Positions 16,214 to 29,539 of a stretch of 64,000 nucleotides of DNA are shown here, in pieces. The position numbers were made by a program, and so were the translations under genes. The notes under the pieces are model-generated. The model was not told the DNA's origin and searched no databases. It saw only the letters and a list, made by a program, of their open reading frames with translations. The DNA is from Urechidicola croceus (GTDB lineage Bacteria; Bacteroidota; Bacteroidia; Flavobacteriales; Flavobacteriaceae): positions 62,001 through 126,000 of the forward strand of contig CAJIZG010000005.1 of NCBI GenBank assembly GCA_905181865.1, read 5' to 3'. How positions within the stretch are numbered: the first letter of the stretch is position 1; each line of letters begins with the position of its first letter.

Positions 16214-16226
16214 ATATAAAGATTAC

Positions 16227-16240
16227 GTTCCACGTGGAAC
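16227..16240. other. Candidate parS site 1 (ParB-binding palindrome)
   Basis: GTTCCACGTGGAAC is a perfect 14-bp palindrome matching the core of known chromosomal parS sites (Bacillus TGTTNCACGTGAAACA; Pseudomonas TGTTCCACGTGGAACA). It lies directly after the mnmG stop codon. An identical copy is at 18124-18137. Confidence 0.75.
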
Positions 16241-18118
16241 CTATCGCCCCATGTACACTAAAAGGACCGAAACATCGCTCGGCGAAACTCCGCTAATTCG
16301 ACTTGCTTGGGCAATTGTAACAGGACGAATTTTAGTCAGTTTTTGTTTTGCCTCTATAGATACCGCTTGCAATTTTTCATAATCAAAACCATCAGGAATC
16401 TTAACGTTTTCCAAGCGATTTAACTTATCGGCATTGTTCCTCTCCTTATTAATATAACCCGAATATTTGATAAGAATTTCTGCTTGTTCTGCAACTTCAA
16501 CATCTATGGAGTTCTCACTTATAAATTCTCTAAAAGATGCAACAGCTTCTAAATCTGCAAAAGTAATTTGTGGCCGAGAAGCTATACGAATCATTTTCAA
16601 CGGCTGTGTAATCACTGCCGTTCCCTTCGATATTAAGACGTCATTTATCTCCTCGGGTCGAATACTTGTGTCGTTCAAAAACTTTACAAAAGCATCGGTC
16701 ATCGCCTGTTTCACTCTTACACGATCTAACCTCGCTTGACTCGCTAAACCAAGTTTGAAGCCCTTTTCCGTAAGTCTTAAATCCGCATTATCTTGTCTTA
16801 ACAACGTGCGATATTCCGCTCTCGAGGTAAACATTCGATATGGCTCATCTGTACCTTTAGTAATTAAATCATCTATCAAAACACCAATATATGCTTCATT
16901 ACGCTGCAGCACAAAAGGATCTTTATTTTGAGTTTTTAACGCGGCATTAATTCCCGCCATCAACCCTTGCGCTCCTGCCTCTTCATAACCTGTTGTTCCA
17001 TTAATTTGACCTGCAAAGAATAAATTTTCAATAATTTTTGTTTCCAACGAATGCTTTAATTGTGTTGGAGGAAAATAATCATATTCTATCGCGTAACCAT
17101 ATCTAAAAAATTTTACATTTTCAAAACCTGCAACTTTACGCAATGCCATATCCTGAATGTCATCTGGCAAAGAAGTTGAAAACCCATTTACATAAATCTC
17201 ATTTGTATTCCATCCCTCAGGTTCTACAAAAATTTGATGTCTATCCTTACTCGCAAATCGATCAATCTTATCTTCGATGGACGGACAGTATCTCGGTCCT
17301 GTACTTTGAATCCTGCCATTAAACATTGGAGATCTATCAAAACCAATTCTCAATAAATCATGAACCTCTTGAGAAGTATAGGTCATATAACAAGACCGCT
17401 GTTCTTTCAAAGGCTCAATTTCCATTAAGTAAGAAAACTTTGCTGGATGCTCGTCGCCTGGTTGTTCAATCATTTTAGAATAGTCCAAAGATCTCGCATC
17501 GACTCTTGGGGGCGTTCCTGTTTTCATTCTTCCAGACTCAAATCCCCTTAGCACTAAATCCTCAGTAATTCCTGTAGAGGCACTTTCACCAGCTCTACCA
17601 CCACCAAAAGTTTTTTCGCCAATATGAATGAGTCCGTTCAAAAATGTACCCGCTGTCACAACAACTGTTTTTGATTTTATTTCAATTCCCAATGCAGTTT
17701 TGACACCAATAATTTTATTGCCTTCAAACAAAAGCGAGTTCACAGAATCTTGGAACATGTCCAAATTTTCAATCTGTTCTAATTGATGTCTCCATTCTTC
17801 AGCAAAACGCATTCGATCACTTTGAGCTCGAGGACTCCACATCGCCGGACCTTTCGACATATTCAACATCTTAAACTGAATAGCAGTCCTGTCCGTAACA
17901 ATACCGCTATAACCGCCTAAGGCGTCAATCTCTCTAACAATTTGTCCTTTTGCAATTCCACCCATTGCCGGATTACAACTCATCTGCGCAATATTTTGCA
18001 AACTCATTGTAATTAATAGTGTATGCGCGCCCAAATTAGCCGCTGCCGCAGCAGCTTCACTTCCGGCATGTCCGCCTCCGATGACGATTACGTCATATGT
18101 AGTTGAATATATACTCAT
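16241..18118 (-). CDS. mnmG: tRNA uridine-5-carboxymethylaminomethyl(34) synthesis enzyme MnmG
   Basis: This 625-residue FAD protein starts MSIYSTTYDVIVIGGGHAGSEAA, the dinucleotide-binding motif. Family blocks include GGIAKGQIVREIDALGGYSG, TAGTFLNGLIHIG, GRAGES, RMKTGTPPR and GTTGYEEAGAQGL. With MnmE it installs the aminomethyl modification at U34 of several tRNAs. The frame extends to a GTG at 18130 inside a parS-like site, but ATG 18118 fits the family. The gene is bracketed by two identical parS-like palindromes and, as in many bacteria, seems to lie near oriC. Confidence 0.97.
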   Translation of the reverse strand: MSIYSTTYDVIVIGGGHAGSEAAAAAANLGAHTLLITMSLQNIAQMSCNPAMGGIAKGQIVREIDALGGYSGIVTDRTAIQFKMLNMSKGPAMWSPRAQSDRMRFAEEWRHQLEQIENLDMFQDSVNSLLFEGNKIIGVKTALGIEIKSKTVVVTAGTFLNGLIHIGEKTFGGGRAGESASTGITEDLVLRGFESGRMKTGTPPRVDARSLDYSKMIEQPGDEHPAKFSYLMEIEPLKEQRSCYMTYTSQEVHDLLRIGFDRSPMFNGRIQSTGPRYCPSIEDKIDRFASKDRHQIFVEPEGWNTNEIYVNGFSTSLPDDIQDMALRKVAGFENVKFFRYGYAIEYDYFPPTQLKHSLETKIIENLFFAGQINGTTGYEEAGAQGLMAGINAALKTQNKDPFVLQRNEAYIGVLIDDLITKGTDEPYRMFTSRAEYRTLLRQDNADLRLTEKGFKLGLASQARLDRVRVKQAMTDAFVKFLNDTSIRPEEINDVLISKGTAVITQPLKMIRIASRPQITFADLEAVASFREFISENSIDVEVAEQAEILIKYSGYINKERNNADKLNRLENVKIPDGFDYEKLQAVSIEAKQKLTKIRPVTIAQASRISGVSPSDVSVLLVYMGR

Positions 18119-18123
18119 AATAT

Positions 18124-18137
18124 GTTCCACGTGGAAC
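18124..18137. other. Candidate parS site 2 (ParB-binding palindrome)
   Basis: GTTCCACGTGGAAC, identical to the site at 16227, is preceded by T, giving TGTTCCACGTGGAAC, which matches 15 of the 16 positions of the Pseudomonas parS consensus. It lies six bases upstream of the mnmG ATG, within the likely ribosome-binding region. Confidence 0.78.
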
Positions 18138-18145
18138 TAAATTAA

Positions 18146-26244: not shown

Positions 26245-28440
26245 TTACATCAGGGTAAAATCTAAATGTTTTCTTTCTAAATCTGTATGTTTCACTTTTA
26301 CCGTTACTTGCTCACCTAATTGAATCATATTTTTTGTTGATTGACCCACGATAGCATACTGACTTTCATCAAAAATATAATAGTCGTCTTTTATATCTCT
26401 AATACGCACCATTCCTTCGCATTTATTTTCTATAATCTCAACGTAAATTCCCCATTCTGTAACTCCAGAAACGACTCCTTCAAATATTTGATCCTGGTGA
26501 GCTTGCATATATTTTACCTGCATGTATTTTATAGAATCTCTTTCTGCCTTCGCCGCTAATTGTTCTCTTTCTGATGAATGACCACATTTGTCTTCGTAAA
26601 TATCCGCCTTTGGAGATTTTCCACCATCCAAATAATATTGCAATAATCGATGTGTCATCACATCTGGATATCGACGAATTGGCGATGTAAAGTGACTATA
26701 ATAATCAAATGCCAATCCGTAATGACCAATATTATTAGTTGTATAAACTGCTTTACTCATAGAACGAATGGTTAAAGTCTCTATCATATTAGATTCTCCT
26801 TTTCCATGAACATCTTCCAACAATTGGTTCAATGTTTTTGATACCGTTTTTCTATTTTCAGTATTAATTTTATAGCCAAACTTACTTATTATTCCTTGTA
26901 GAGCTGTTAATTTATCAATATTTGGTTCATCATGAATTCTATAAATAAACGTTTTGTTGGTGGGGCTTCCTTTATCAAATCCAATAAATTCCGCTACCCG
27001 CTTATTTGCCAATAACATAAACTCCTCAATTAATTTATTCGCGTCTTTAGATTCTTTAAAGAATACACCTATTGGATTTGCGTCTTCGTCTAAATTAAAC
27101 TTCACTTCTACCCTATCAAACGTAATAGCACCTTGCTGTATTCTCTTCTTTCTTAACTTTTTTGCAAGTCGATCTAAGGTTACGGTAGCCTCCATAATTT
27201 CTAGAGCAACTTCATATGTTTCACCCGTTAAAGAAATAGCTGCTGGCATCATATTTTCAGATGGATTCTCAATCAAAAATTGCGCTTCCTCATAGGCAAA
27301 ACGAGCATCAGAATACGTAACGGTTCTTCCAAACCATTGATCAACTACTTGCGCTTTTTCATTGATTTCAAACACTGCAGAAAACGTTAACTTCTCTTCA
27401 TTAGGTCTTAAAGAGCAAACATTATTCGATAAGATTTCCGGTAACATGGGTACTACTCTATCTACCAAATAAACCGAAGTAGCTCGAGCATATGCTTCAT
27501 CATCTAAAATAGAGTCTTCTTCTAAATAGTGAGAAACATCTGCAATATGAATTCCTATTTCAAAATTTCCATTTTCCAATTTTTTAAATGATAAAGCATC
27601 ATCGAAATCCTTGGCTGTTTTTGGATCTATCGTAAACGTTGTCGTCTGACGCATATCACGTCTTTTTTTAATTTCCTCTTCTGTAATTTCAATAGGTATT
27701 TTAGAAGCATCATCCTCGACCTCTGAAGTAAATTCGTACGGTAAATCATACTCCAATAAAATGGAATGAATCTCTGTATTATGATCTCCAGGTTTTCCTA
27801 AAACAGTTTTGATTGTTCCAAATGGATTTTTTGAATTATCTGGCCAATCCACCAAACTTACTAAAACCTTATCTCCATCTTCTGCTCCATTTAATTTTTT
27901 CTCCGGTACAAAAAAGTCTACATACATTTTTGCATCGGCAGGAATTACAAACCCAAAATTCTCATTCATCTGTAATACACCTACATAATCCCTCTTTTTT
28001 CTTTCAATTACTTGAACAATATCCCCTTCTTGCTTATCACTTCTTTTACGATTGTACACATAAACTTTTACAATATCATTGTGTAATGCATGATTTAAAT
28101 TACGCGCCGGAACATAAATATCATGTTCTAGCTCTTCGCAAATTACATACGCATTACCTCTAGCAGTTACATCAATTTTCCCTTGATAATAATGATCTTT
28201 TTGAATTACTTTGTATTTGCCTCTAGTTACTTCTTCTAATTTTCCTTGACTTTTAAACTCTTCTATTTTCTCAATTATTTGTTGCTTTCCATGTGCATCT
28301 TCAATTCTTATCTTTGAAGCAATCTGCTTATAATTAAAAGATTGCGTAGCATTATTGTTAAATATTTTAAAAACATTTTCTGATAAATGTTTAATAATAT
28401 TCTCCTTTTTTTTATATATATTTTTCTTCTTTCTTGGCAT
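26245..28440 (-). CDS. rnr: Ribonuclease R
   Basis: This 731-residue exoribonuclease has an N-terminal winged-helix region, two cold-shock-type OB domains and the RNB catalytic domain with DPKTAKDFDDALSF and IGIHIADVSHYLEED. These carry the acidic metal-binding cluster. GLAFDYYSHFTSPIRRYPDV follows, and then a C-terminal S1 domain (FEGVVSGVTEWGIYVEI). It degrades structured RNA 3' to 5'. It starts at the left edge of the proposed origin region and is transcribed away from it. Confidence 0.96.
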   Translation of the reverse strand: MPRKKKNIYKKKENIIKHLSENVFKIFNNNATQSFNYKQIASKIRIEDAHGKQQIIEKIEEFKSQGKLEEVTRGKYKVIQKDHYYQGKIDVTARGNAYVICEELEHDIYVPARNLNHALHNDIVKVYVYNRKRSDKQEGDIVQVIERKKRDYVGVLQMNENFGFVIPADAKMYVDFFVPEKKLNGAEDGDKVLVSLVDWPDNSKNPFGTIKTVLGKPGDHNTEIHSILLEYDLPYEFTSEVEDDASKIPIEITEEEIKKRRDMRQTTTFTIDPKTAKDFDDALSFKKLENGNFEIGIHIADVSHYLEEDSILDDEAYARATSVYLVDRVVPMLPEILSNNVCSLRPNEEKLTFSAVFEINEKAQVVDQWFGRTVTYSDARFAYEEAQFLIENPSENMMPAAISLTGETYEVALEIMEATVTLDRLAKKLRKKRIQQGAITFDRVEVKFNLDEDANPIGVFFKESKDANKLIEEFMLLANKRVAEFIGFDKGSPTNKTFIYRIHDEPNIDKLTALQGIISKFGYKINTENRKTVSKTLNQLLEDVHGKGESNMIETLTIRSMSKAVYTTNNIGHYGLAFDYYSHFTSPIRRYPDVMTHRLLQYYLDGGKSPKADIYEDKCGHSSEREQLAAKAERDSIKYMQVKYMQAHQDQIFEGVVSGVTEWGIYVEIIENKCEGMVRIRDIKDDYYIFDESQYAIVGQSTKNMIQLGEQVTVKVKHTDLERKHLDFTLM

Positions 28441-29104
28441 AAAATTGTCTGATTTTTAAGAGGTTAAATGTACAACTAATTTAATTGCACTTAGATTAAT
28501 AAATTGTTACCTCAATAAATATTTTTAATACTTCTTAAAGTATCTTTACCTTTTCAATTATTGAAGAAATTAAGTTCTGTTATATTTTAACTTTATCAAC
28601 AACATATATATATATATCATTTTTCTTTAAAATATTTAAAAAGTAAATGATAGTTATTATAGTGTGTTAATATGTACACAAACTATTACCTCTTAAATTT
28701 TGATATATCACTTATTAAAAACTATAAACAGGTTATATATTTTTAACTACTTAAAAATCACCAATACTTCTATATTTATACACAGGTTGTTTATAAGCTA
28801 TAAACACAACTTTATTTTATAAAAAAGTGAAGCGTAAATGTTTATAAGTGTAATTTTTATGGTTGATAAATAGCCGTTAAAAAACAGTAACTAAATTTTG
28901 ATTTTAAATAATTAGTAGCGTATAATAATAATTAATTTATTGACCAAATTTAGTTATATATTTCAAGCATAATGTTACCAACAATTACTGTTTTATATAA
29001 CTACTCTGAATATTAATAGATTGTATAATAGCTATTAACATTAGGAAATTTAGTTGTTAATAACAGGTTTTTGTATTTTTGTAAAAATTTAAACACCTTA
29101 AAGG
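28441..29104. other. Candidate chromosomal replication origin (oriC)
   Basis: This 664-bp stretch has no gene and is very AT-rich. It contains DnaA-box-like 9-mers: TTATCAACA (28593-28601), TTATACACA (28776-28784, exact TTATNCACA), and the reverse form TGTTTATAA at 28788-28796 and 28839-28847. An alternating AT run at 28603-28618 could serve as an unwinding element. TTGTTTATA-AGC-TATAAACA is a near palindrome at 28787-28806. It separates divergent rnr and rpiB, and gene orientation switches here. The evidence is circumstantial. Confidence 0.6.
29054..29081 (+). promoter_or_regulatory. rpiB promoter
   Basis: TTG at 29054-29056 and TATTTTTG at 29074-29081 are 17 bases apart, fitting the Bacteroidota -33/-7 promoter. 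The rpiB ATG lies 23 bases downstream. Confidence 0.6.
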
Positions 29105-29539
29105 ATGACAATTGCAATAGGAAATGACCATGCCGGTCCAGATTATAAATTTGCTATTATGGAATATCTAAAATCTCAAAATATAGATGTAGTAAATTAT
29201 GGAACAGATTCTCTAGATAGCGTAGATTATCCGGATTTTGTTCATCCTGTTGCGAGTGCAGTAAATGATAGTAAGGTTGAATTTGGAATTTTAATTTGTG
29301 GAAGTGCCAATGGTGTAGCTATGACAGCAAATAAATATGCAAATGTGAGAGCTGGATTATGTTGGACTAAAGAAATTGTAAGTTTAATTCGTCAGCATAA
29401 CAACGCAAATATTTTATGTATTCCAGCAAGATTTACAGCGATTCCTCAAGCAATAGAGATGGTTAACACTTTTTTAAATACGGAATTTGAGGGCGGAAGA
29501 CATCAAGATAGAATTGATAAAATCCATTTGAAATGCTAG
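29105..29539 (+). CDS. rpiB: Ribose-5-phosphate isomerase B
   Basis: This 144-residue RpiB/LacA/LacB protein has IGNDHAGPDYK at the start, DYPDFVHPVASAV, LICGSANGVAMTANKY with the active-site Cys, and RAGLCW. HNNANILCIPARF follows. It interconverts ribose-5-phosphate and ribulose-5-phosphate in the pentose phosphate pathway. It is the first gene right of the proposed origin, and the CDF transporter gene follows after one base. Confidence 0.96.
   Translation: MTIAIGNDHAGPDYKFAIMEYLKSQNIDVVNYGTDSLDSVDYPDFVHPVASAVNDSKVEFGILICGSANGVAMTANKYANVRAGLCWTKEIVSLIRQHNNANILCIPARFTAIPQAIEMVNTFLNTEFEGGRHQDRIDKIHLKC

Follow-up and report, generated by a model that had tools for sequence, protein, structure and literature searches.

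The gene-free, AT-rich stretch lying between rnr and rpiB at positions 28441 to 29104 of the window (the whole 64,000-nucleotide piece of DNA analysed here) is very probably a DnaA-dependent chromosomal origin of replication (oriC), according to the computational prediction presented in this work. The candidate is an object of an ordinary kind, a chromosomal origin, located well away from dnaA, in a slot that is kept in much of the family, and its boxes have a distinct spelling. A preliminary description of this DNA had suggested a probable chromosomal origin between these two genes, and the position of the skew minimum, the enrichment of DnaA boxes and the conservation of the slot in relatives are in agreement with that suggestion.

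Results

The window corresponds to C5:62001-126000 of a 3.42-Mb draft genome in six contigs (G000, Flavobacteriaceae), which places the stretch at C5:90441-91104. Its left neighbour is rnr, encoding ribonuclease R (26245-28440, minus strand; TIGR02063, 724 bits, above its cut-off), and its right neighbour is rpiB, encoding ribose-5-phosphate isomerase B (29105-29539, plus strand; NF004051 and TIGR01120, above their cut-offs), which serves as the anchor of the slot. The four closest relatives by rnr, at 82-86% identity, are genomes from metagenomes that carry the labels Flavobacteriaceae, Bacteroidetes and Lutibacter. The 664 bp between the two genes are without genes and have a GC content of 0.198 (bases 28442-29104), as the preliminary description of a gene-free and very AT-rich stretch had stated. 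Rfam gave no match in the stretch up to an E value of 1. Simple promoter patterns were no more frequent in the stretch than in shuffles and were set aside, and one terminator-like match lies inside the start of rpiB.

When the window was joined to its neighbouring stretches, the cumulative GC skew over the resulting 104 contiguous kb had its minimum at window position 28783, inside the stretch, which is the outcome that the preliminary description had named as support for an origin. A genome-wide skew sample consisted of 56 stretches and the window, covering approximately 34% of the assembly of six unordered contigs, which limits the case for the origin. In this sample, only the candidate on C5 marks a lasting change from minus to plus inside a contig: the skew there is negative in all four pieces to the left and positive in 10 of the 11 pieces to the right. 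The skew is negative throughout C3 (13/13 pieces) and in 11 of 13 pieces of C1, the contig that carries dnaA; it is positive in 8/9 pieces of C4 and 6/7 pieces of C2, and approximately zero in the one piece of C6. Gene orientation also switches at the stretch. A mechanical count placed 17 of 24 ORFs on the minus strand to the left and 18 of 28 on the plus strand to the right, upholding the switch previously reported from 19 of 25 and 20 of 29 genes. In ORFs directed away from the stretch, the third-codon-position skew over the 104 kb is +0.35 (left, minus strand, n = 26) and +0.33 (right, plus strand, n = 25), compared to −0.04 (left, n = 6) and −0.05 (right, n = 11) for ORFs pointing towards it; on the coding strand, the third-position skew is thus symmetric to the left and right of the stretch. 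In an earlier small hand count, plus-strand coding sequence was rich in G over C on the right (gdhA) and about balanced on the left (holB).

Five putative DnaA boxes are present in the stretch. The first, TTATCAACA at 28593-28601 (plus strand), occupies a conserved slot at about −512 from the rpiB start; the second, TTATACACA at 28776-28784 (plus strand), lies where relatives (at about −330) usually have TTATNAACA. Two copies of TTATAAACA follow on the minus strand at 28788-28796 and 28839-28847, the latter in a conserved slot at about −245 to −275, and TTATTAACA at 29055-29063 (minus strand) takes up a conserved slot at about −50 to −70. The preliminary description had recorded the first four of these boxes and had missed TTATTAACA. 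The box that it singled out as exact, TTATACACA, is indeed present at 28776; however, since the box of the clade is spelled TTATNAACA, this single TTATNCACA box is the odd one out. TTATNCACA is the consensus box given in PMC5742627. When the stretch itself was shuffled with its dinucleotides preserved, TTATNAACA proved to be enriched, so that the comparison with shuffled DNA proposed earlier as a refuting test comes out in favour of the origin: four copies are seen in the 664 bp, the shuffle mean is 0.30 and 3 of 5000 shuffles reach four. With the TTATNCACA box added, five are seen (reached in 1 of 5000 shuffles), and TTATNCACA alone is seen once (reached in 343 of 5000). Of the nine TTATNAACA copies in the window, four are inside the stretch, and TTATNNACA is at chance across the whole window (20 seen, 21.97 expected). 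The conservation of TTATNAACA suggests that it is the box of the DnaA of this genome. Because the lineage has this spelling, a search with TTATNCACA finds almost nothing, and TTATNCACA as the sole search spelling was discarded, its four copies in the window being at chance level (3.88 expected). Genome-wide, TTATNAACA occurs 342 times, compared to 547 for the pattern read backwards, as if it were avoided outside the origin.

A gap next to rpiB is likewise present in 66 of the 80 relatives, which were ranked by rnr similarity and are therefore not an unbiased draw. The remaining 14 are without rpiB in the locus DNA examined; of these, L057 and L079 had a full 10-kb flank. The longest run free of ORFs extends up to rpiB in each of the 66 that were measured. 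The over-represented 9-mers of the 67 regions formed by these relatives and the window include TTATCAACA (53 regions, 2.2 expected), TTATTAACA (59 regions, 7.8 expected) and TTATAAACA (50 regions, 8.5 expected). TTATNAACA recurs at approximately −515, −335, −245 to −275 and −50 to −70 from rpiB, and at least four copies are found in 57 of the 67 regions; TTATNCACA has only 22 copies over all 67. In the 66 relatives, the density of TTATNAACA is 5.69 per kb inside the slot, compared to 0.22 per kb in the flanking DNA, a 26-fold difference; for TTATNCACA, the two values are 0.39 and 0.06 per kb. A flank of 4 kb or more on either side was available for 56 relatives. In every one of these, the skew is lower to the left than to the right of the slot, and in 41 it passes from negative to positive across the slot. 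In many relatives (L004-L083), rnr is separated from the AT-rich stretch by an ORF of about 300 codons.

The slot is not uniform across the family. Neither box spelling occurs within 900 bp upstream of rpiB in 10 of 27 family genomes (24 of the 30 ranked highest by DnaA C-terminal score, together with G254, G354 and G362), which counts against the origin reading; these genomes may have a relocated origin or an insertion of DNA. Beyond the family, we considered 23 loci of the same order and 22 of the class or phylum, as best matches only and with at most 1.5 kb upstream. At least three TTATNAACA in an ORF-free gap were found in one locus only (G013), and the rpiB slot as an origin beyond the family was rejected. 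Outside Flavobacteriaceae the slot is mostly not recognisable, and we do not extend the origin claim to the phylum.

Other elements accompany the boxes. An AT run at 28604-28617, directly after the first box, may be the unwinding element; the region is also AT-rich in the aligned relatives inspected. A TA-repeat unwinding candidate had been noted previously in the stretch. The alignment of the 67 regions, of which 22 rows were inspected, contains a conserved element of the type TTATNATAGNNTGTTAATA at 28654-28672. Its right end overlaps a one-mismatch box, exact boxes do not explain it, and it is a second candidate, beside the AT run, for a part in the mechanism. Inverted repeats are present in the stretch, for which a near palindrome had been described earlier. 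DnaA-trios were scored as at least three trios within 16 bp of a box, with the letters taken from PMC7561715 and the number and distance from PMC8287927. There is no DnaA-trio beside the exact TTATNAACA boxes of the window (the published rule allows inexact boxes); over the 67 regions, trios are beside 39 of 311 boxes, compared to 27.15 at random positions. There is no clear excess of DnaA-trios, which counts against the origin reading.

Evidence independent of skew and boxes comes from two palindromes, CGTTCCACGTGGAACC at 16226-16241 and TGTTCCACGTGGAACT at 18123-18138, both with the core GTTCCACGTGGAAC. They sit at the two ends of mnmG, approximately 10 and 12 kb from the stretch (within 12.5 kb), where two parS-like sites and mnmG had been described. 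With at most one mismatch, GTTCCACGTGGAAC occurs at two places genome-wide, both in the window, and the control of GTTCCACGTGGAAC read backwards has no match in the genome. We call the palindromes parS-like from their resemblance to the parS consensus; the GTTCCACGTGGAAC palindrome differs from Bacillus subtilis parS at 3 of 16 positions. TTCCACGTGGAA was found in 13 and TTTCACGTGAAA in 10 of the 80 relatives' loci, in the locus DNA examined.

The spelling of the box may be related to a residue of DnaA. The DnaA of this genome reads RDHATV where the Escherichia coli domain of 1J1V reads RDHTTV, with Ala at the position of Thr435 in the recognition helix. Thr435 is described as contacting the DnaA box (PMC5742627, PMC7561715), and T435 in the contact-residue list of PMC7561715 is the aligned third residue after RD. 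We tabulated 45 genomes and left out 12 with fewer than three boxes and three in which no DnaA was read (G324, G354 and G362; RDHATV was read for G324 in a separate search). Among the 30 remaining genomes (29 of the family and one of the order), each with three or more boxes within 900 bp, TTATNCACA outnumbers TTATNAACA in 3 of 3 RDHSTV genomes and in 0 of 27 RDHATV genomes (Fisher p 0.00025, kinship ignored). Upstream of rpiB, the Ser-type loci L196, L322 and L329 have 5, 5 and 3 TTATNCACA, compared to 0, 2 and 1 TTATNAACA. The presence of 2 and 1 TTATNAACA in the Ser-type genomes G230 and G163 speaks against covariation, and so do two Ala-type genomes: G323, left out of the Fisher count, has no TTATNAACA and two TTATNCACA in 411 bp, and G151, sister of the Ser-type clade, is mixed (three TTATNAACA, two TTATNCACA). 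Outside the family, where the slot is not established as the origin of the genomes concerned, the pattern is blurred: the Ala-type G106 and G052 have one TTATNAACA and two TTATNCACA, and in family f5 four genomes of Ser type carry 0-2 TTATNAACA and 0-1 TTATNCACA.

In a tree of 47 DnaA proteins, in which two long Ser-type branches may be falsely joined and the column of the residue itself was kept, the three Ser-type proteins fall in one clade (support 99/95). The shift of residue and box may therefore be a single event, and covariation as several independent events is not supported. In L265 and L267 (G372 and G268), which share a long branch of the tree, DnaA deviates (RNHATV), and the 900 bp upstream of rpiB contain no boxes. 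We tentatively suggest, leaning slightly towards doubt, a co-evolution of DnaA with its box in Flavobacteriaceae, Ala at the Thr435 position going with A, not C, at box position 6 (TTATNAACA), and the RDHSTV clade having mostly TTATNCACA. If true, Ala or Ser against a box letter would be a natural recognition code for a replication initiator. The apparent joint shift of residue and box letter permits a direct binding test.

Discussion

We propose the following mechanism for the stretch. DnaA, encoded far off, would bind the approximately five boxes between rnr and rpiB, most of them TTATNAACA, and would melt the AT-rich DNA adjoining them, for which our best guess is the AT run beside the first box. 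Two forks would then depart in opposite directions, and ParB, on the parS-like sites 10-12 kb away, might segregate the new origins.

An alternative, which we consider highly improbable, places the origin at dnaA and takes the stretch to be no more than a long AT-rich region with the promoters of rnr and rpiB. The gap between these genes must hold divergent promoters, records of the family often start their numbering at dnaA (in at least 11 one-contig genomes, a DnaA domain is in the first 1.5 kb), and two TTATNAACA, among the matches listed, are found downstream of dnaA at a distance of up to 2.1 kb (C1:469143 and 469512). However, dnaA (C1:471138-472562) is located deep within contig C1, where the skew is mostly negative, the pieces sampled at dnaA and to either side all have a negative skew, and the skew minimum and the parS-like sites are at the candidate and not at dnaA. 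Among the matches listed, and for the TTATNAACA spelling only, there is no box within 5 kb upstream of dnaA, the next being at C1:478398. The earlier proposal of an origin away from dnaA, which is not in the window, is supported: dnaA is on C1, and the sampled skew shows no switch there. A one-contig genome of the same genus (G254) also argues against an origin at dnaA. Its rpiB is at 2.369 Mb, with four TTATNAACA at −511, −328, −316 and −51. Between 0.85 and 2.23 Mb, 8 of 9 stretches have a negative skew, and between 2.38 and 3.25 Mb, 5 of 6 have a positive one. Its dnaA is near base 1, about 1.06 Mb from the rpiB slot; the skew is positive both there and in the last sampled stretch before it (3.23 Mb), with no switch at dnaA among the sampled stretches. 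Four stretches between 0.17 and 0.70 Mb have almost no skew, and by arithmetic the point opposite the origin would be at about 0.66 Mb. In Polaribacter BM10, the slot at 2.464 Mb lies between a negative arm (11/11 stretches, 0.85-2.40 Mb) and a positive arm (4/4, 2.55-3.08 Mb), dnaA at 1.276 Mb is within the negative arm, and the skew is mixed over the first 0.70 Mb (five stretches). Another three-box cluster was seen in this genome at about 1.21 Mb, in a sampled stretch. Tenacibaculum AHE14PA counts against the rpiB slot as the origin: its skew is noisy and, to the left of its own slot, is +0.03 and not negative.

The boxes could also form a DnaA titration or regulatory cluster like E. coli datA, that lies by chance near the true origin; this too we regard as very unlikely. 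Box clusters alone are no proof of initiation, and a second three-box cluster exists far from the candidate, with three TTATNAACA in 143 bp at C1:178613-178755 (among the matches listed, for C1 and part of C2). This second cluster counts against the origin reading of the stretch and is itself possibly a titration or regulatory site, or chance; no 600-bp span with three TTATNAACA was found in the 1.11 Mb sampled elsewhere in the genome. Against titration at the stretch, the skew minimum is inside the box cluster itself, and the skew rises across the slot in all 56 relatives with enough flank. We therefore favour the reading of the stretch as a chromosomal origin. An origin elsewhere than at dnaA affects coverage-based growth-rate estimates, strand-bias studies and shuttle vectors.

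The literature searched contained nothing on rpiB with oriC in flavobacteria and nothing that links the Bacteroidetes to Ori-Finder, to DnaA-trios or to the species-specific boxes of DoriC; most subscription papers were outside the search, so novelty is unproven. The main texts of PMC6323995 and PMC8287927, which use or describe DoriC, have no word starting with 'bacteroid'. TTATCAACA occurs as a word in the literature, including a paper on Cyanothece origins (PMC4674748). The origins predicted in DoriC and by Ori-Finder rest on evidence of the same kind as ours, i.e. skew, boxes and neighbouring genes. Blattabacterium Bge belongs to the same phylum as the host of the candidate. Its origin is like the candidate in being set by GC skew and in not being at dnaA (PMC2768785), and its genome is reported to have no dnaA and no DnaA boxes, the skew switch being in dapB (PMC2768785). 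Although the candidate differs from an oriC of the E. coli or B. subtilis type in having TTATNAACA in place of TTATNCACA, a distant dnaA and no clear DnaA-trio, it resembles that type in its cluster of boxes, its AT-rich stretch, its skew minimum and the parS-like sites nearby.
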